Origin: a virus
Direction: 5' to 3' (one strand)
Virus record (IMG/VR): IMGVR_UViG_3300045999_005687
Span: 1-41,001 of that record
DNA length: 41,001 nt
The first letter of the stretch is position 1; every line of letters begins with the position of its first letter. The translations under genes were made by a program, and so were the position numbers. The notes beneath the pieces are model-generated. The model was not told the origin of the DNA. It saw only the letters and a list, made by a program, of their open reading frames with translations, and did no database searches. Shown in pieces: positions 14,584-23,401 of the stretch.

Positions 14584-14805
14584 ATGGCTTGGGGTGATTG
14601 GATGGTGCCCAAGCCAGGGCCAGAGCACCTACTTACCTTGGAGCGTCAGAAACGGGCAGTTGAGAGCTACGACCTAGCGCAGGCGCAAGAGATGCTGCTC
14701 AAGCTGTGCCAGCTTTCCATGCACCAAGATCTGATCATCCGAGGAGCTACGCGACGGATCGCAGAGCTTGAATGCAGTCTTGCCCTTGCAGACCGCCAAG
14801 CTTGA
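14584..14805 (+). CDS. Small conserved cyanophage-type helical protein
   Basis: 73 residues on the + strand, opposite to its neighbours, ending in QDLIIRGATRRIAELECSLA. Short proteins of the form P.PG.EHL......A........LL......QD.IIR.A.R.IAELE are familiar to me from picocyanobacterial phages; their function is unknown. It probably forms a coiled coil. It converges with, and overlaps by 59 bases, the 3' end of the sigma gene. Confidence 0.65.
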   Translation: MAWGDWMVPKPGPEHLLTLERQKRAVESYDLAQAQEMLLKLCQLSMHQDLIIRGATRRIAELECSLALADRQA

Positions 14806-15778
14806 GCCGCAGAGTGGTCATCGCCCGCTTGTGCATCTGCTGCGTGGCCTGACGGCTCACCTCAAGGTCTTTGCCGATTTCCTCAAACGGCGTGGGATGA
14901 CGTGTGCTGTGGAAATAGCGCCGCTGAATGATGTGTTGATGCTCAGGGCATAGATCGTCAATAGCCTCATGTAGGGCATTGCTGAACTCTTGGAGGTTGT
15001 CGGGCTCAGGATGGAGACTGGTCGGATCAGCCACCACATCCATAAACTCGCCATACTTTTCACTGCCTGGCATCTTCTGATCCAAGCTGAGCACGCTGGC
15101 GTTGTGGTTCAAGTAGCCCAGCAGTGTTTCCTTTTGAATCTTGCAGTGTTTAGCAACCTCATCAATAGGTGGCATCTTGCCAGTGTCACGCATGTGTTGC
15201 TGCATGTAGTCCATTGACTTGCGTATCACATCATTGGCCTGCATTGGCAGATGTATGACGCGACTGTGGCGATTGATTGCTCGCGTGATGCCTTGCCTGA
15301 TCCACCAATAGCAATAGGTGCTGAACTTGTAGCCAAGGGCTGGATCAAACTTGAGGATCGCCGAGTCCAAGCCAATGAGACCTTCTTGAATCAGGTCTTC
15401 AAGCGTCAAGGTGCCGCAGTACTTCTTGTACTTGCCCGCAACGTTGACAGCCAGACGGATATTGGAAAGAAAGAAGCGATCACGAGCGCGGCGCCCCTTT
15501 TTAATGATGCCATTCTGTTGTTTGCTCGGTGATTGCACATCACCAATGGCAACCCAAGCTTGCACTTGACGAGCCAAGGTGATCTCTTCGGCCGCAGTGA
15601 GCAATGGGTAGCGGCGTGAGTGCTGAATGATCCAATCAACAGAGGTGCCAGGCGTGGCCATCGGCAGCAGAGTGGGAGAGAAATGGCTAAGCTGTGTGCC
15701 TAGAACTTCTTTTGAGGGTCTAGGCGTTACCGTAGTGGCAGGCTGCGGTGAGGCCGGCACCGCGTGAGGACCGGCCAC
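14747..15778 (-). CDS. RpoD-like sigma-70 family sigma factor
   Basis: Up to 343 residues from GTG 15778 (an internal ATG at 15661 would give 304). It holds a full set of sigma regions: 1.2 (SVDWIIQHSRRYPLLTAAEE, from about residue 46), 2.1-2.4 (RDRFFLSNIRLAVNVAGKY, LTLEDLIQEGLIGLDSAILK, FSTYCYWWIRQGITRAI, about 99-168), 3 (about 174-235) and 4 (LCPEHQHIIQRRYF to EEIGKDLEVSRQATQQMHKR, about 276-320). It resembles cyanobacterial group 2/3 sigma factors and would redirect host RNA polymerase. It lies at the end of the early minus-strand operon after dCTP deaminase, a sensible place for a middle/late switch. Region 2.4 is near-canonical, so promoter choice cannot be predicted from sequence alone. 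Confidence 0.92.
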   Translation of the reverse strand: MAGPHAVPASPQPATTVTPRPSKEVLGTQLSHFSPTLLPMATPGTSVDWIIQHSRRYPLLTAAEEITLARQVQAWVAIGDVQSPSKQQNGIIKKGRRARDRFFLSNIRLAVNVAGKYKKYCGTLTLEDLIQEGLIGLDSAILKFDPALGYKFSTYCYWWIRQGITRAINRHSRVIHLPMQANDVIRKSMDYMQQHMRDTGKMPPIDEVAKHCKIQKETLLGYLNHNASVLSLDQKMPGSEKYGEFMDVVADPTSLHPEPDNLQEFSNALHEAIDDLCPEHQHIIQRRYFHSTRHPTPFEEIGKDLEVSRQATQQMHKRAMTTLRLKLGGLQGQDCIQALRSVA

Positions 15779-17029: not shown

Positions 17030-17233
17030 CTAGCCTTGCTGTTCAATCAAAGAAGGCAAGGCCATGCCACGCCGAGCTAAATCACGCAGCGCGGCACTGG
17101 TTGTGATGTTGTGCTGTTTAGCGTGCTCGCGTACCAGCTCCAGCTCTGAGGCATTCAGCCTGGTGTTGATCGGAGCAGCAGGCTGACCGCTACTGGGATA
17201 GCGACGCGGCTTTGCTGTTGAAACGTCAGACAT
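17030..17233 (-). CDS. Ribbon-helix-helix-type DNA-binding protein
   Basis: 67 residues. After a basic, disordered N-terminus the sequence PINTRLNASELELVREHAKQ then TTSAALRDLARRGMAL fits a short strand, helix, turn, helix plan (R-L-N followed by ELELVREHA and SAALRDLARRG), as in CopG/Arc/MetJ regulators. These bind tandem operator sites as dimers. It overlaps the upstream gene by eight bases. It is a candidate for binding the GTACGTGTACGTAC elements or the 10-bp repeats; the target is not shown by the sequence. Confidence 0.7.
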   Translation of the reverse strand: MSDVSTAKPRRYPSSGQPAAPINTRLNASELELVREHAKQHNITTSAALRDLARRGMALPSLIEQQG

Positions 17234-17460: not shown

Positions 17461-17691
17461 CTAACGCGAGTGATTGTGCGCTTGGACTTGCTTGATTTCT
17501 TCAAGGATCCGCTTGAGGCGGTCAACTTTGAGCACGGTGTTCCCGTATTGGGTGATGCGGTGCTCAAACGCGGCAACACGGAAAGCGTGGTCGATGTCAA
17601 GGCACTGGATGGCTGCATTGACGTGCTGCTGCGCAAACGTGAGGTGGTCATGCAGAGACAGCGGCAGCTGGTCGGGCGTTGATCCAGTCAC
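17461..17691 (-). CDS. Hypothetical helical protein (about 76 aa)
   Basis: The protein-like stretch HDHLTFAQQHVNAAIQCLDI, FEHRITQYGNTVLK, RLKRILEEIKQVQAHNHSR lies in this frame and clearly differs from the Ser/Thr-rich alternative frame. The start is unclear: GTG at 17691 overlaps the end of the ERF gene by 44 bases and has no strong ribosome site. The C-terminal helix is basic. The function is unknown; position suggests a recombination accessory protein. Confidence 0.5.
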   Translation of the reverse strand: MTGSTPDQLPLSLHDHLTFAQQHVNAAIQCLDIDHAFRVAAFEHRITQYGNTVLKVDRLKRILEEIKQVQAHNHSR

Positions 17692-18325
17692 TGATGAAAT
17701 CGGCGTGCGCCTGAGTTTTGATGTAGTCACTGACAGGAACCTCAGCAGCGAGGCCAAAGCGTGCGCGGAAGGCATCAGCCAGCTGTGGCACCAGATCTGA
17801 GCCAAGGTCTTGAACGCGATCAAGCAGAGCTTTCTTGGCTTCTGTGCTGAGGCGGCCAGGGTTAGGGCTGGCAACGGGAGCAGCAGGTACCACTGCTCTC
17901 TTGTGCGTACCCGTACCCGATTTGGCCACGGCTTTTTGCTCGGTGCCGAAGCTGTCGCCGTCGTCGTCTTCAGCGGCCAGGTTCAAGATCGCCAGCAGTG
18001 CGTAGCGACGGAGGTACGTGGTTGCCGCACCAAAGGCGTGCAGGGCATTGCGCTGCCCTTCGGTTGAAGGCATCGGCAGGTCTGACGTGACCGACTCACC
18101 GCTGGCGTGCAGGAGCGTGGTGCGCAGCAACGTGCAGCCACCTTCAAAGGGTGAGAAGGTTTGAGTGACGACAAGGCCGTGCTTGCTCAACACAGGGCTG
18201 ACAGCAGCGAGCACCGTGGCCAGATCGGCGTATTTGCCGTATTGAGCACTGGATTGCTTGAGGATGCGGCCCACCTCAGCGTGAAAGCCGGCGAGGGCCT
18301 GAGCAAGCGTTTGCAAGGGAAGCAC
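17648..18325 (-). CDS. erf: ERF-family single-strand annealing protein
   Basis: 225 residues from GTG 18325. The N-terminal 130 residues follow the P22 Erf-type pattern: FHAEVGRILKQSSAQYGKYA, DLATVLAAVSPVLSKHGLVV, LLRTTLLHASGESVTSDLP and GAATTYLRRYALLAILNLA then EDDDG. Erf proteins anneal complementary single strands during phage recombination and genome circularisation. A Pro/Ala linker separates a helical C-terminal domain. It is preceded by an operator-bearing promoter (18343-18371). The natural partner, a PD-(D/E)XK nuclease, is encoded on the other strand at 22282 beside the same operator element. Confidence 0.88.
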   Translation of the reverse strand: MLPLQTLAQALAGFHAEVGRILKQSSAQYGKYADLATVLAAVSPVLSKHGLVVTQTFSPFEGGCTLLRTTLLHASGESVTSDLPMPSTEGQRNALHAFGAATTYLRRYALLAILNLAAEDDDGDSFGTEQKAVAKSGTGTHKRAVVPAAPVASPNPGRLSTEAKKALLDRVQDLGSDLVPQLADAFRARFGLAAEVPVSDYIKTQAHADFISDWINARPAAAVSA

Positions 18326-18342
18326 CCCCGATGGACCCCATC

Positions 18343-18371
18343 AGTGTACGTGTACGTACAAGGTGGGTCAA
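18343..18371 (-). promoter_or_regulatory. Sigma-70-type promoter with GTAC operator in the spacer
   Basis: On the minus strand: -35 TTGACC (18371-18366), 17-base spacer, -10 TACACT (18348-18343). The spacer and the -10 hold TGTACGTACACGTACA (18360-18345), the genome's recurrent operator-like element. It drives the ERF operon. The -35 overlaps the stop codon of the repressor-like gene. Confidence 0.7.
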
Positions 18372-19090
18372 GTGTTGCTGGTGATCTCCTGCAGTTCCTG
18401 GCTCAGATCCAGGCAGCACCATTCCTGCAGCGCAAGCACTGCGCGGTTGTGCCCTTCGGAGTCCTTGAGTGTCTCTAGCTCTTCTGGTGACCAGCTGCGC
18501 CAGCCAGAGAGCACCTGCTGAAACGCATCAAGCTGTTCAGGCGTCAAGCTTGCGCAGTGCTGCTTCAGTTGCCCCCATGCCTCGGCTTTGCTGAGGCCGT
18601 GGCTGGTGGCATGGTTTTCAAAAAGCTGTTGCTTCTGGCTGCTGATCCGCTGTGCCAACTCAACGGACAGCAGCTTGGTCTTTTCCGGCGGTGGCCCGGA
18701 ATCAAACTGCGGCGGCGGGTCAAGCTGGCCGATGTAGCAGGCAAAGAAGTCCACTGCTGACCACGGCCGACCGCTGGCATCGGTGATCGGCTCAAGGGCT
18801 TGAACGCGATCCATCAAGGCACGGCTTTGGATCGGTCCGTAATCTCTCGCCGCCAGCCGCTGATTCAGGTACCCCAGCGTGGCGAAGAACCGTGGGCTGG
18901 TCTTGGGTTGGGTGCCGGCCCAGATGAAGCTGACGGTGTTGTTGGAGATCTGAGGGAGACCAGCGGCCTTAGCCCACTCCATCGGGGTCTTGGTGCTCCA
19001 GCCGCCGCTCCGCATCCAAGCCTTGATCATCAAGCCAAAGCGGACCCTGGCCTGCTCAAAGCGCTCGTCTTGAAACGGGGCAATATCCAT
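18368..19090 (-). CDS. Repressor-like DNA-binding protein with N-terminal HTH
   Basis: 240 residues. Residues about 36-80 (MEWAKAAGLPQISNNTVSFI, then SPRFFATLGYLNQRLAARD) read as a helix-turn-helix of Cro/CI type, with A-A-G-L-P...N-N-T-V-S at the turn and recognition helix. The rest is helical, with Gln/Glu-rich segments and no protease site (no Ala-Gly/Ser-Lys LexA dyad seen). It lies between the serine recombinase and the ERF gene, flanked on both sides by GTAC elements. It is therefore the best candidate for the lysogeny regulator that binds them; this is inferred. Confidence 0.7.
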   Translation of the reverse strand: MDIAPFQDERFEQARVRFGLMIKAWMRSGGWSTKTPMEWAKAAGLPQISNNTVSFIWAGTQPKTSPRFFATLGYLNQRLAARDYGPIQSRALMDRVQALEPITDASGRPWSAVDFFACYIGQLDPPPQFDSGPPPEKTKLLSVELAQRISSQKQQLFENHATSHGLSKAEAWGQLKQHCASLTPEQLDAFQQVLSGWRSWSPEELETLKDSEGHNRAVLALQEWCCLDLSQELQEITSNT

Positions 19091-19100
19091 GCGGACCCAT

Positions 19101-19112
19101 TACGTGTACGAA
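19101..19112 (-). promoter_or_regulatory. Partial GTAC operator upstream of repressor-like gene
   Basis: TACGTGTACGAA on the + strand (minus: TTCGTACACGTA) lies 11 bases upstream of the ATG at 19090. It is a degenerate copy of the GTACGTGTACGTAC element and could serve autoregulation. No convincing -35/-10 pair is seen. Confidence 0.55.
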
Positions 19113-19137
19113 CGCTAACCCCAGTGACCAGTGCTGT

Positions 19138-19170
19138 GAAGCGCGCTGCAGCAATGCTTCTCGGCGCTTC
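19138..19170 (-). other. 7-bp stem after the recombinase gene
   Basis: GAAGCGC (19138-19144) and GCGCTTC (19164-19170) form a hairpin in the 88-base gap between the recombinase stop and the GTAC element. There is no T-run in either direction. It may be a weak terminator or part of an attachment site. Confidence 0.35.
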
Positions 19171-19200
19171 GGGCAAGAAGTGCATTCGCTGCAAGAGGTC

Positions 19201-20595
19201 TCAGCGCAAGGCAATCTGCTGCACAGTGCGGCACTCCCATCCTTCCCCCTCCGGCTTGTAGGTCGTGTCGATCAGGCAGTGATCAATGACCGCGAGCAGG
19301 TAAGCGTTGCGCTCGCCGTCAGGCCTGGCCATGAACGTGTTTTCAGCGCGGAGCAGCATCGCCTTGGCCTGATCAACCCTGCTCTGATCGGGGTTGCTCA
19401 TCGCGGCCTCTAGGGCCTGCAGGCGACCCATGGCCTGCTTGAGGTCAGCTCGTACACCAGGGCTTTCCAGTTCGCTTAGCAGCGCTTCCAGCTTTCGTAC
19501 CCGCTGGCGCAGGTTGACCACCTCTGCCGATTCAGTGACCAGATCACCACGGGTTGCCCCTTTGAGCGCCATCGCCTCAAGGGCTTCGCCCAACTGGTGC
19601 AGCACAGCCATTTCCACCAGCTCAGCGCTGATCAGCTTGCGAAAGCCAGGGCACTCCCGCTTGGCAGCGCAGCGGAGGTAGCGGTACTTGGTGCCATTGG
19701 ACTTGTTGACCGTGCTGTGAGCAAGGGCATGGCCGCAATGGGCGCAATGACACAAGCCGGTCAAGGCATAAACCTTGTGGTTGGTGGTGGTGCCCCATCG
19801 CTTGCGGTTGGCCTGCAGGCGCCGCTGCAGCAGCTCTCCTTCCTCTGAACTGATCAAGGCCGGGAAGCAGTTGGTGATCAACACCGGGCCATCCCGTTTG
19901 CCGTAATGCCCAAGCAGTGAATGGCTGCGCAGCCACTTGTGCATCGTTGCGGCACAGCCGATCACCCCGTGCTTGGCGTAGATCCGGGCCGATAGGGCAT
20001 CGAGACGGGCACGACCCTCCATGTAGTCGAGCACCACGTCGCGGGCATCGTCCCAGCGCTCTGGGTGCTGTATGACGCCGTGCTTGGTGCCTGGCTCTCG
20101 CATCAGGTGCCACGGCAGCTGCTTGCTGGTGAATGCAGGCACGCCACGGGCGATGGCAGCAGCTTGGCCGCGCTTGATCTTGTCCGACAGGTCGCGGGAA
20201 TACAGCTCAGCCATCAAGCTCATTTGCTTGGCGCTGTACCAGCTCATGGCGCTGCCATGGGTGACCTGCAGGCCTGCAGCCAAGAACTCGACACCGTGCT
20301 GATCGCACAGCTGGATCAGCTCGGTCAGCAGCTCATCCTTGCGAGCGGCTCGACTGATGTCTGTGGCCAGCAGGCGGCTGAGGCGCCCGCTCCTGATGTC
20401 TTGCATCAAGTTCTGCCATGCAGCAGAACTGCGGCGCTTCTCAGAGCTGAAACCAGAGCCGACGTACTCGTAGAAGCGGGTAGCTCCTTGGCTGGCCAGT
20501 AGGTGGCGCTGGTTGGCTGGACTGTCCGATTGCTCGGCTTGGCGCTTGGTGCTGACGCGGATGATGGCGCCGACTTCGCCTGCAGTGACTGACAT
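19201..20595 (-). CDS. Large serine recombinase (phage integrase)
   Basis: 464 residues. The resolvase-type catalytic domain occupies about residues 8-150, with nucleophile Ser15 in IIRVSTKRQ and Arg-rich LLATDISRAARKDELL. A recombinase DNA-binding domain follows. A zinc ribbon at about 285-330 contains CHCAHCGHALAHS and later LRCAAKRECPGF. A C-terminal coiled coil (LRQRVRKLEALLSELE) completes the layout of large serine integrases, which insert phage DNA at attB without host factors except a directionality protein. Its presence argues for a temperate lifestyle. It is divergent from the 20759 ribbon-helix-helix gene. Confidence 0.93.
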   Translation of the reverse strand: MSVTAGEVGAIIRVSTKRQAEQSDSPANQRHLLASQGATRFYEYVGSGFSSEKRRSSAAWQNLMQDIRSGRLSRLLATDISRAARKDELLTELIQLCDQHGVEFLAAGLQVTHGSAMSWYSAKQMSLMAELYSRDLSDKIKRGQAAAIARGVPAFTSKQLPWHLMREPGTKHGVIQHPERWDDARDVVLDYMEGRARLDALSARIYAKHGVIGCAATMHKWLRSHSLLGHYGKRDGPVLITNCFPALISSEEGELLQRRLQANRKRWGTTTNHKVYALTGLCHCAHCGHALAHSTVNKSNGTKYRYLRCAAKRECPGFRKLISAELVEMAVLHQLGEALEAMALKGATRGDLVTESAEVVNLRQRVRKLEALLSELESPGVRADLKQAMGRLQALEAAMSNPDQSRVDQAKAMLLRAENTFMARPDGERNAYLLAVIDHCLIDTTYKPEGEGWECRTVQQIALR

Positions 20596-20611
20596 CTGCC
20601 ATGTCTACCAT

Positions 20612-20643
20612 ATCCCAGTCACTTGAGATGCTGCGACTGGGAT
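20612..20643. repeat. 9-bp dyad upstream of serine recombinase; attP or operator candidate
   Basis: ATCCCAGTC (20612-20620) and GACTGGGAT (20635-20643) form a perfect inverted repeat with a 14-base centre, 16 bases from the recombinase start codon. Serine integrase attP sites are imperfect dyads of roughly 50 bp close to the gene, but an operator for the recombinase promoter is equally possible. A second small dyad, GAGCGC-A-GCGCTC, is at 20674-20686. Confidence 0.4.
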
Positions 20644-20739
20644 CTTGCAACAGCAATGGGGCGTTGCCGCAGCGAGCGCAGCGCTCAGCGCAAGGACCCC
20701 AAAGCACTGAAACCGAAGAAAACCCTACGTCTCTGATCT

Positions 20740-20753
20740 TGTACGTGTACGTA
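20740..20753 (+). promoter_or_regulatory. GTAC operator overlapping leader of ribbon-helix-helix gene
   Basis: TGTACGTGTACGTA runs directly into the AAGG ribosome site of the gene at 20759. This placement would allow a bound protein to block transcription of the leader, consistent with autoregulation by the encoded DNA-binding protein. Confidence 0.65.
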
Positions 20754-20758
20754 AGGAC

Positions 20759-20971
20759 ATGGTGGAACTCCGGGCATTTCACGCCATGGATCCACAAGCC
20801 TTCAGCCACATGACACGCAAGCCCAAGCGCATGACCATCACGCTGCCCGACAAGACCTTTCGCGGCCTGGTGGAGCGCAGCAACAGGGAAGGGCGCTCCA
20901 TGTCGAACCTCTCCGCCTTTCTGCTGGAGCAGGCGATGGACCAGCCGGGCCAGCAAACGCAACAGCGCTAA
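20759..20971 (+). CDS. CopG/Arc-like ribbon-helix-helix regulator
   Basis: 70 residues from the ATG at 20759, supported by AAGG five bases upstream; ATGs at 20786 and 20810 are alternatives. The core KPKRMTITLPDKTFRGLVER then EGRSMSNLSAFLLEQAM is a textbook ribbon-helix-helix: beta strand R-M-T-I-T-L-P, helix A, S-x-S-N-L turn, helix B. These proteins are dimeric DNA-binding repressors. The GTAC element touches its ribosome site, and the gene is divergent from the integrase. It is a candidate Cro-like or excision/early regulator. Confidence 0.8.
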   Translation: MVELRAFHAMDPQAFSHMTRKPKRMTITLPDKTFRGLVERSNREGRSMSNLSAFLLEQAMDQPGQQTQQR

Positions 20972-21013
20972 CAGCCGTCTCAAAACGATCTCAAGGGACT
21001 CATCGCGCACCCC

Positions 21014-21043
21014 TTGCGGGTACAGGTACGCACCCGGTAATTT
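21014..21043 (+). promoter_or_regulatory. Promoter-like site with GTAC operator variant
   Basis: TTGCGG (21014-21019), then GGTACAGGTACGCACC (21019-21034), then TAATTT (21038-21043), an 18-base spacing. Base for base it follows the 22921 promoter closely. It lies upstream of the 10-bp repeats and the 21111 gene. Confidence 0.55.
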
Positions 21044-21110
21044 CCGGCAGATCCCGGCAAATGCCGGCGATCACCGGCAAATGCCGGCAAATCCCGTTAA
21101 TCCCCGGCAC
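21031..21110 (+). repeat. Eight tandem 10-bp direct repeats (iteron-like)
   Basis: Eight consecutive decamers in perfect 10-base register from 21031 to 21110, consensus ATNCCGGCAA. In order: CACCCGGTAA, TTTCCGGCAG, ATCCCGGCAA, ATGCCGGCGA, TCACCGGCAA, ATGCCGGCAA, ATCCCGTTAA, TCCCCGGCAC. The array ends exactly at the ATG of the 21111 gene. The period of one helical turn suggests binding of a protein array on one DNA face, as an origin iteron set or an autoregulatory operator. Confidence 0.85.
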
Positions 21111-21728
21111 ATGTCAAAGCGCGTTGAGCTGCGCCTTCCGCCCGATCTGGTCTTTCAACTCGAAGCCAGAAAACCCAAAACGCAGTCCCTGTCTAGCTTT
21201 TGCGCCCTTCTAATCGAGCAAGGGCTTGACGGGTCTGGTACTCTGGGAGGACCGAGCGCAGCCGGGACTCCCTCTACTTCTTCTTCTAATGGTATTACTT
21301 CTATAGAAGTAAATACTGTTGTTACGGAAGCGGTAAACGCAGAGGCTGAGCCTGCTGAACCGTCTCAAAAGCGTCGCAAGCGCAAACCCAAGGCAGATGG
21401 TGGGCCTGAGTTCGAGGCCTTCTGGCGTCAATACCTCGCGATCAAGCAACGGGCCAACGGTCAGACCAAGCCTGCGGCTGTTGAGGCTTGGGGCAAGGTG
21501 ACCAAGGAGATCACCGCTGGTCAGCTGCAGGCCGCTCTGACCGCTGCGGTCAACGAGCAAGCCAGAGCAATACGCGAGAACAACTGGGCTGCTCCGTTCC
21601 CGGATTGCCACCGCTGGCTGAGCAAGGGCTATTGGCAGCAACACGTCACTGGCACTGCTGCAGAAACGGTGCTTGCTGAGCGTCCGAGCTTCACACCCCC
21701 GCCTGAGTTCCCCGACGCACCGTTCTGA
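21111..21728 (+). CDS. Replication-initiator-like protein: RHH N-terminus plus DnaT/replisome-organiser-like C-terminus
   Basis: 205 residues from the ATG at 21111, directly after the 10-bp repeat array. Residues 1-43 (KRVELRLPPDLVFQLEARKP, SLSSFCALLIEQGL) are a ribbon-helix-helix module. A Ser/Thr-rich linker of about 40 residues follows, locally AT-rich. The C-terminus (EFEAFWRQYLAIKQRANGQT, AWGKVTKEITAGQLQAAL, FPDCHRWLSKGYWQQHV) matches the F..FW..Y...K.K..A..AW.K......PH..WL..G.W pattern of phage replication proteins with DnaT-like helper domains. It probably binds the repeats and recruits host helicase. The role is inferred. Confidence 0.75.
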   Translation: MSKRVELRLPPDLVFQLEARKPKTQSLSSFCALLIEQGLDGSGTLGGPSAAGTPSTSSSNGITSIEVNTVVTEAVNAEAEPAEPSQKRRKRKPKADGGPEFEAFWRQYLAIKQRANGQTKPAAVEAWGKVTKEITAGQLQAALTAAVNEQARAIRENNWAAPFPDCHRWLSKGYWQQHVTGTAAETVLAERPSFTPPPEFPDAPF

Positions 21729-22258
21729 TGACCACCTCCCACAAGCGCGTTGCACCGCATCGCGACAAGACCTTCAGGCGTCCGCTGTTTGAGTGCTACG
21801 CCTGCAACGACAGCGGGCTGCTGAGCAACGCTGATGGCCTACTGCGGCACTACCTGCCCGACTACGACTGCAAGCCGGATGGCAGCCCTTGTGGCGGCCA
21901 TGACCTAGCGCTGGTGTGCTGGTGCAAAGCGGCCTACAAGCAGCAAGGGCCCGATGGTCAGCTCTCGCGTGGTGGGTTCCGCGAAGACAGCGGTGCTGTG
22001 CGCCTGGTGCAGACCAGCAACGGACAGCAGGCCATCGGCAGTGAGCTGAGCAAAGAAGCAGCCCGTGAGCTGCACAGCGTCAGGCGTCAGCAGTGGGAAG
22101 CAGCTGAAGAAGCAATGACCGCTGCACGAGCCTCAGGAGAGCCGCCGTGGTTCATCACGGAGTCCAGGGTGGTCCTAGAGGCCTTACCGGCCTCAGAGCG
22201 GCGTTCTGGCGGCTTACAGAGCCTTGGCAGCATCCTCAGCGGCAAGCCTTCCTTTTGA
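21728..22258 (+). CDS. Hypothetical protein with zinc-finger-like Cys pairs
   Basis: 176 residues, overlapping the previous stop by one base. The N-terminal third holds several Cys pairs: FECYACNDSGLL, DYDCKPDGSPCGGHD and LVCWCKAAY, a likely zinc-binding module of CxxC...C.....C..H...CxC type. The C-terminal half is helical and charged. Coupling to the replication gene suggests a role in replication or helicase loading. No named family is recognised. Confidence 0.65.
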   Translation: MTTSHKRVAPHRDKTFRRPLFECYACNDSGLLSNADGLLRHYLPDYDCKPDGSPCGGHDLALVCWCKAAYKQQGPDGQLSRGGFREDSGAVRLVQTSNGQQAIGSELSKEAARELHSVRRQQWEAAEEAMTAARASGEPPWFITESRVVLEALPASERRSGGLQSLGSILSGKPSF

Positions 22259-22282
22259 CCCCAAGCGACACCTGTACGTACA
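22255..22282 (+). promoter_or_regulatory. -35-like box plus TGTACGTACA palindrome at nuclease start
   Basis: TTGACC at 22255-22260 overlaps the previous stop codon. The perfect palindrome TGTACGTACA at 22273-22282 touches the ATG of the nuclease gene. A -10 box at normal spacing would overlap the start codon, so regulation here may differ from the 18343 and 22921 sites. Confidence 0.5.
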
Positions 22283-22911
22283 TGAACTGGCTTGACCCGC
22301 TCCCCATCGACCACGACCCCAGTTCGTGGTCCTACTCACGCACTGATACCGGTCATCTGTTCCCGATCTCCATCACCGGGATCATTGGCGCCGTCACCCT
22401 CACCGATGCCGACCGCGACAACATCGAGGCTTACCGCCACATCTGGGAACCTCGCGGCAACACCGTCCACAGCTGCCTGGAGGCTTGGCTCAAAACCAAG
22501 GTGCGCCCTTCGGCAGATGAAGCCGGTGACTACGGCGATTGGATCTACCCCTTGGTTGATCACCAGATCTGGCAGCACTGCGACGTGATCGGGGCTGAAC
22601 ACCGCGTCTACGACATGCGCCAGAACTGGGCCGGCACGCTCGACGTGGTGGTGCGCTGGCACAAAGGCGGCTACGGCGTGCTCGATCTCAAGACCAAGAG
22701 CAAGCCAAGCAGCAAAAAGCAAGACGTGCGCCCTCAACTCGGTGCAGGCACCCGCGCCTTGATTGATCTGTACATCCTGTCCATAACGCGCAACCTCGTG
22801 CTCTGGGCCTACCCCGGCGAGATGCACCCCGATGGCTACGAGGCACAGGACTGCCTGGATGCCTGGACTGAGCTGTTTGAGCAGTACAAGCTGCGTCACC
22901 GCCCCTTCTGA
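22282..22911 (+). CDS. PD-(D/E)XK exonuclease, RecB-like
   Basis: 209 residues from the ATG at 22282; the frame extends upstream but there overlaps the previous gene. Catalytic pattern: Glu106 (VIGAEHRVYD), Asp121 (WAGTLDVVVRW), Asp135-Leu-Lys137 (GVLDLKTKSK) and downstream PQLGAG with Gln152, the core of RecB/lambda-exonuclease-like nucleases. With ERF it would form a two-component recombination system. The partners lie on opposite strands about 4 kb apart, yet both start beside the same GTAC element, suggesting common control. Confidence 0.85.
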   Translation: MNWLDPLPIDHDPSSWSYSRTDTGHLFPISITGIIGAVTLTDADRDNIEAYRHIWEPRGNTVHSCLEAWLKTKVRPSADEAGDYGDWIYPLVDHQIWQHCDVIGAEHRVYDMRQNWAGTLDVVVRWHKGGYGVLDLKTKSKPSSKKQDVRPQLGAGTRALIDLYILSITRNLVLWAYPGEMHPDGYEAQDCLDAWTELFEQYKLRHRPF

Positions 22912-22920
22912 TCTCACCCC

Positions 22921-22949
22921 TTGACGGGTACGTGTACGTACCTTATGCT
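22921..22949 (+). promoter_or_regulatory. Sigma-70 promoter with GTAC operator filling the spacer
   Basis: -35 TTGACG (22921-22926), exactly 17 bases, -10 TATGCT (22944-22949). The spacer is occupied by GGTACGTGTACGTACC (22927-22942), the most complete operator copy. It drives the run of small genes from 22972. A protein on this site would block RNA polymerase binding. Confidence 0.8.
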
Positions 22950-22971
22950 TTGAGGGACAGGCAGCGCTCCC

Positions 22972-23217
22972 ATGCCATCCACCCTCTGCACTCGACTACC
23001 CAACGCAAAACCCATGGACTGGGCCGAGCGTTACCTCTTCAACAGCACCCTTCTCTCTGATTGGTGCCACGAGTACGAACTCGACGAGATGTACGCCACC
23101 TTTGAAACGGCTGGCCTTCCCTACACCGTCCAATTTGTTCCTCCCGCTGCCGAGCGTGAGCCCTACGACTGGGCAGACGAATGCCGTTCGGCTGAATCCC
23201 GCAACTCTTTTTCGTGA
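22972..23217 (+). CDS. Small hypothetical early protein
   Basis: 81 residues, first gene after the operator-controlled promoter. It is acidic and aromatic: MDWAERYLFNSTLLSDWCHE, YELDEMYATFETAGLPYTV. Acidic small proteins made early are typical of host-interaction or DNA-mimic proteins, but there is no specific evidence. It is related in feel to the next two genes (each about 60 residues, with P-Y-x-V or G-x-P-Y segments), hinting at a small family of takeover proteins. Confidence 0.65.
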   Translation: MPSTLCTRLPNAKPMDWAERYLFNSTLLSDWCHEYELDEMYATFETAGLPYTVQFVPPAAEREPYDWADECRSAESRNSFS

Positions 23218-23224
23218 TCGGAGC

Positions 23225-23238
23225 TTGTACGTGTACGC
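23225..23238 (+). promoter_or_regulatory. GTAC operator overlapping a start codon
   Basis: TTGTACGTGTACGC covers the GTG start at 23231, with GGAG at 23220-23223. The element lies partly inside the coding start, so a bound protein would act as a roadblock. Confidence 0.55.
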
Positions 23239-23401
23239 ACCCGTTCAACTACAGCAGCTTCTAGACGCTGCCATCACCTCAGACGCCAACGAGGAAGACG
23301 CCACCGACTTCCTTGACGACCACGGCATCCCCTACTTCACCCACAACCGTCAATTCCTCATCGCCCTCGCCTACCGCAATGGCTGGCGCCCTGACTCATG
23401 A
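23231..23401 (+). CDS. Small acidic hypothetical protein (56 aa)
   Basis: Start chosen at GTG 23231, seven bases after GGAG; TTG at 23225 is too close to the ribosome site. The sequence MYAPVQLQQLLDAAITSDAN, then DATDFLDDHGIPYFTHNR is acidic and helical with a short strand. It overlaps the next gene by ATGA. Its IPY segment echoes the LPYTV segment in the preceding protein. The function is unknown. Confidence 0.6.
   Translation: MYAPVQLQQLLDAAITSDANEEDATDFLDDHGIPYFTHNRQFLIALAYRNGWRPDS

Follow-up and report, generated by a model that had tools for sequence, protein, structure and literature searches.

Operators of the CI type in phages lambda, 434 and P22 are 14 bp long, two-fold symmetric about a 4-bp centre and situated inside early promoters. 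Cluster A mycobacteriophages such as L5 and Bxb1 use one helix-turn-helix (HTH) repressor to read many short sites per genome, at promoter and non-promoter positions; these stoperators are distributed genome-wide (as many as 30), are oriented with transcription and block elongation, the repressor and its site co-diverge, and phages with different site spellings are heteroimmune (PMC6550527). For phages of marine Synechococcus and Prochlorococcus, lysogeny has long been debated. The sequenced genomes of marine isolates contain no intact prophages, attempts to isolate lysogens have failed and the integrase-bearing T7-like cyanophages have no repressor homologues (PMC8776855, PMC6157547). Among integrase-bearing phages of unicellular cyanobacteria, S-LBS1 encodes a tyrosine integrase, and S-TIP37-like phages lack repressor homologues and form no stable lysogens (PMC6157547, PMC8776855).

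The window analysed here, that is, the whole stretch of DNA studied, is a virus record of 41,001 bases classed as a cyanosiphophage. The large terminase shares 73% identity with that of Synechococcus phage S-H1, 71% with that of KBS-S-2A and 65% with those of Prochlorococcus phages MED4-117 and MED4-184, which makes a picocyanobacterial host probable, most likely a Synechococcus of the sea or of lakes. Repeats in its early region point to a previously unrecognised repressor and a possible immunity system. As in Cluster A, many short sites occupy promoter and non-promoter positions, a single HTH protein is their candidate repressor, and site and candidate appear to diverge together, with a difference in spelling expected to mean heteroimmunity; unlike stoperators, the sites (eight near-palindromes of 14 bp) are restricted to the early region and mixed in orientation. 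The locus shares with the lambda, 434 and P22 CI systems its operator anatomy, an adjoining integrase and possibly a lambda-repressor-like N-terminal fold, but a LexA-like peptidase domain is not recognised, clustered OL/OR triplets are absent and the structural match is weak. The early region resembles the P22 Arc/Mnt and CopG systems in having ribbon-helix-helix (RHH) proteins, one of whose genes has a site just before it, although the DNA-contact residues of these proteins do not track the operator change. In contrast to S-LBS1 and S-TIP37, the clade to which the window belongs has a serine integrase together with a repressor–operator candidate. Should this be correct, the immunity system would be the first on record for phages that infect unicellular picocyanobacteria; a candidate repressor, its putative operators and a serine integrase can be named in a clade represented in dozens of metagenomic contigs.

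Operator sites and promoters of the early region

The minus strand of the early region encodes a large serine recombinase or integrase (19201–20595; Pfam Resolvase, 5.4e-16; PHROG integrase, 1.6e-48), a 240-residue protein (18368–19090), an ERF single-strand annealing protein (17648–18325; Pfam ERF, 4.8e-21) and a small RHH protein (17030–17233). The plus strand encodes a second small RHH protein (20759–20971; RHH_5, 2.5e-8), an RHH-fused protein resembling replication initiators (Rep; 21081–21728; PHROG replication initiation, 1.8e-6), a PD-(D/E)XK-type exonuclease (22282–22911; PHROG exonuclease, 7.5e-12), a small early gene with no assigned function (22972–23217; ∼67% identity in relatives) and a second small early gene with an operator in its first codons (23225–23401). 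The ERF, exonuclease and second RHH genes are putative targets of regulation. The window also encodes, on the minus strand, a sigma-70-type factor (14747–15778) with recognisable regions 1.2, 2, 3 and 4; the same factor is present in a relative on contig L012 and is 32% identical in KBS-S-2A.

The operator is a 14-bp inverted repeat, GTACG-N4-CGTAC, with the consensus GTACGTGTACGTAC, and eight copies lie within 17.9–23.24 kb. The perfect copies are in the ERF promoter (18346–18359, plus strand) and between the −35 and −10 elements of the small-early-gene promoter (22928–22941, plus strand). Two copies have a single mismatch: one precedes the start codon of RHH gene 20759 by 5 bp (20741–20754, plus strand), and the other overlaps both start codons, TTG 23225 and GTG 23231, of small early gene two (23227–23240, plus strand). 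Two mismatches occur just upstream of the 18368–19090 repressor candidate (19100–19113, plus strand), over the exonuclease start codon (22274–22287, minus strand) and inside the ERF gene, where GTACGGGTACGCAC is placed like a stoperator (17903–17916, minus strand); a variant with three mismatches lies upstream of the rep-like gene (21020–21033, plus strand). The seven copies listed in the first-pass annotation all exist, at coordinates that were 0–2 bases off, and the copy that it overlooked is the one within the ERF gene, which is conserved in relatives.

A pattern scan allowing up to three mismatches returned 15 matches, including several sites counted on both strands, compared with 0.96 ± 1.03 in 100 dinucleotide shuffles (maximum 5). 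Seven sites with at most two mismatches fall in 17.8–23.3 kb and none in the remaining 35.5 kb; with three mismatches allowed, the counts are ten and one. In a leave-one-out weight-matrix scan of the whole record each held-out site ranks 1–8, and the copies listed earlier all outrank everything outside the cluster. Both scans agree with the earlier statement that the virion region has no comparable copy.

Only two sigma-70-like promoters were found in 16.5–25 kb and each holds a perfect operator. Upstream of the small early gene, TTGACG-17-TATGCT (22921–22949, plus strand) encloses the operator within its 17-base spacer, as first described. The same layout had been assigned to 18343–18371; a promoter is present there on the minus strand (TTGACC-17-TACACT, for ERF), with the operator overlapping the −10 element. 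The third promoter, proposed at 21014–21043 (TTGCGG...TAATTT), was not flagged in the sigma-70-like promoter scan. Since shuffled sequence of equal size gives ∼1.5 promoter-like sites, promoters by themselves say little; the weight lies in the coincidence of operator and promoter and in conservation among relatives. Placement inside promoters, originally ascribed to the family as a whole, holds for two or three of the eight copies and most are not between −35 and −10, because four sites (19100, 20741, 22274 and 23227) lie no more than 17 bp from a start codon and another is intragenic.

Equivalent sites in related phages

Relatives were gathered with the terminase first and afterwards with 18368-protein and gene-22972 alignments. 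The early gene order is kept in dozens of these metagenomic relatives, from which the GTACG element is absent; CTAGC-N4-GCTAG occurs instead at the equivalent promoters and start codons and at the ERF-internal position. With at most one mismatch, each relative locus has 3–10 CTAGC-type sites (0.1–0.9 expected) and no more than one of the GTACG type, although these locus counts overstate the number of independent cases because the contigs often overlap or are near-identical, and 44 distinct protein sequences are the better count. The operator family is thus private to the window in its spelling only, the system itself being common to a clade. Its extension as one family over the divergent early and recombination region is corroborated by the differently spelled equivalents that relatives carry there.

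Site positions agree between the window and its relatives at ERF, 22972, 23231, rep and inside ERF. The sequence upstream of 22972 is TTGACG-G-GTACGTGTACGTAC-CT-TATGCT in the window and TTGACG-C-CTAGCGTTGGCTAG-CC-TATTCT (TTGACG-17-TATTCT) in the relatives, in a register identical to the base; the register is likewise identical at the ERF promoter, where CTAGCGTTGGCTAG is again the equivalent, and where the second small gene begins. Equivalent CTAGC-type sites are found near the RHH and rep genes, those corresponding to the window's rep variant being CTAGCCGTGGCTAG and CTAGCGACCGCTAG. Inside ERF, CTAGCGCTAGCAAG or a near match occurs in almost every relative examined, ∼500 bases beyond the end of the 18368 gene; GTACGGGTACGCAC lies 451 bases beyond it in the window. 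The spelling has changed in a coordinated manner: in ten orthologous site pairings, G and C are always inverted at positions 1, 4, 11 and 14 and mostly at positions 5 and 10, whereas T2, A3 and A13 are unchanged. The two spellings form a natural operator-specificity pair that differs by a simple rule and should be useful for studying the origin of phage immunity specificities.

A second GTACG-type phage was not found among viral contigs, where the 18368, 20759 and integrase proteins of the window retrieved no relatives as queries. An exact scan of these contigs for GTACG-type promoters gave three (L192, L193 and L194) with TTGAC..GTACG-N4-CGTAC..TA arrangements, such as TTGACACGTACGAACACGTACGCTAT; all are without related genes and perhaps represent independent use of the GTACG half-site. 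CTAGC relatives also have one conserved virion-region operator, with TTATAC behind it, just past the portal gene (L022:13612, L028:13068, L026:13067 and L027:10618), at a place where the window has no GTACG copy. A conserved hairpin-like leader, GGGGGCGACCCC, lies between the operator promoter and gene 22972 in the CTAGC group (for example around 7500–7540 of L022) and is absent from the window.

Candidate readers of the operator and a proposed switch

Four candidate regulators were compared within the CTAGC group and against the window. Only the 18368–19090 protein has a predicted recognition helix that is constant among CTAGC phages but has been exchanged in the window, a change that matches that of the operator. 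The segment of residues 47–61 shows 96% conservation across 44 distinct relatives, and the window is identical at 0 of 15 positions, while it is 41% identical over residues 81–228; invariant residues are kept at 0 of 9 positions in the former segment and at 31 of 47 in the latter (Fisher p = 2.7e-4). The AlphaFold2 model (mean pLDDT 85) places helices 35–42 and 50–58, the predicted HTH, in a five-helix N-terminal part. Foldseek matches are led by XRE regulators, C proteins and lambda repressor, none of them significant (E ∼1), and the N-terminal domain modelled alone gave low confidence and no useful structural matches. No Pfam family, PHROG family or PDB sequence matched the protein, which would therefore represent an undescribed family, unlike the Cluster A repressors. 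The control module as a whole is diverged from that of the relatives (∼37% identity for the 18368 protein and ∼24% for the integrase), so that the changed helix could reflect general drift, and the contrast between GTACG and CTAGC specificity depends on a single GTACG-type phage, the window.

The first-pass annotation had proposed one regulator, either the HTH protein at 18368 or an RHH protein; the former is the most likely reader of the operator judging from these comparisons, and the RHH proteins are excluded or unlikely. The best placed of them is the 20759 protein, which as a CopG- or Arc-like dimer on each palindromic tetramer could control its own gene and the regulon. In its favour are its RHH_5 match, the operator 5 bp before its start codon and the palindromic GTAC or CTAG tetramers, whose 10-bp separation (one helical turn) suits RHH dimers. 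A CopG/Arc-type reader should have strand residues that track the operator, yet the presumed contact residues R-x-T-x-T are kept in the window and most CTAGC relatives although every conserved G/C position of the operator differs, and in some CTAGC phages a T is replaced by S or C; we consider this protein an unlikely regulator. Less likely still is the 17030 protein, whose strand does differ between the window (PINTRL) and the relatives (VxVxxHL), but which varies within the CTAGC group (VAVCAH, VQVGVH, IKVGAH and VKVNSS) while the operator stays constant, and which has no site at its own gene in the window. The RHH domain of Rep was rejected on the grounds that CTAGC phages differ among themselves in its contact strand (RINLTVQ, RLELRLP and RITLTLE), some of them having the window type, and that the strand follows the iteron array instead.

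Action of the sites through an activator, or through an 18368 protein that both activates and represses, would accommodate the rep and repressor-gene sites, which are not clearly between −35 and −10. We judge it about as improbable as regulation by the 17030 protein, since the two best sites cover the spacer and −10 element, where a bound protein normally blocks polymerase, and the start-codon and ERF-internal sites are ill-suited to activation. Cyanobacterial LexA boxes (consensus RGTACNNNDGTWCB) contain GTAC half-sites, and a host factor such as LexA might on this ground be suspected of reading the sites. The half-sites found here are spaced by 2 or 6 rather than 4, relatives use CTAG at the equivalent places and the consensus has no match in the window, so such a reader is very improbable. 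Equally hard to credit is that the copies are chance occurrences, replication iterons or recombination sites: some do lie near rep and the serine integrase, but the counts are far above chance, the copies are at promoters and starts of many genes in places conserved among relatives, and a distinct 10-bp iteron array is already present at rep.

The reading that we favour, and regard as probable, is that the sites are operators of a single phage repressor, the 18368–19090 protein, from an undescribed family with a predicted N-terminal HTH, and that together with the serine integrase they make up a switch by which a temperate cyanosiphophage controls immunity and its early genes. As a dimer the protein would recognise both GTACG half-sites. 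Bound at the promoters of ERF and of small early gene 22972, it would cover the spacer and −10 element and block RNA polymerase; at the sites inside ERF and at the start codons of 18368, 20759, 22282 and 23225/23231 it may act as a roadblock in the manner of mycobacteriophage stoperators, and through the 19100 site it would damp its own gene. We infer an immunity role from the serine integrase adjoining the gene and the repressor-like anatomy of the system. The sequence itself shows the sites, their conserved positions, the coordinated change in spelling and the matching change in one protein; binding, repression and lysogeny are predictions. With GTACG rather than CTAGC specificity, the window phage and its CTAGC relatives would be expected to be heteroimmune, like the pair L5 and Bxb1. 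A broader proposal seems to us possible, though short of probable: that this widespread clade of picocyanobacterial siphophages is truly temperate under the control of a new family of repressors, and that its division into heteroimmune groups came about through G:C inversion around a fixed T-A core of the operator together with replacement of the recognition helix.

Searches of a genome collection with the 18368 alignment gave no relative and no lysogen; with terminase the sole matches were two short contigs belonging to marine metagenome bins, again without a lysogen. Considered as a possible integrated prophage, a 106-kb contig (L012/L134; 106,734 bases) appears instead to be an assembly chimera, in which a 70-kb phage of lower GC content with a 140-bp terminal repeat is joined at that repeat to a CTAGC-type cyanosiphophage, and it is thus no evidence of lysogeny.

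Rep iterons and a further cyanophage group

Directly before the RHH-fused rep gene, at 21034–21113 of the window, are about eight helically phased 10-bp repeats (CCGGCAAATN). Across relatives the iteron sequence tracks the rep RHH strand, R-x-E-x-R occurring with the CCGGCAAA type and R-x-N-x-T with iterons of the CGGTTCARAT or ACGGCGCCAA type, which suggests that Rep reads its own iterons through the RHH domain. A further group of cyanophage contigs (L206, L211, L229, L241, L243, L253, L271, L293 and others) shares a 5′ leader, GGGGGCGACCCCACC, and has relatives of rep, exonuclease and RusA; an 18368 homologue was not found in it. The promoter palindrome of this group differs, being GGGGTATACCCC or GGAGTATACCCC, and possibly represents a third operator system.
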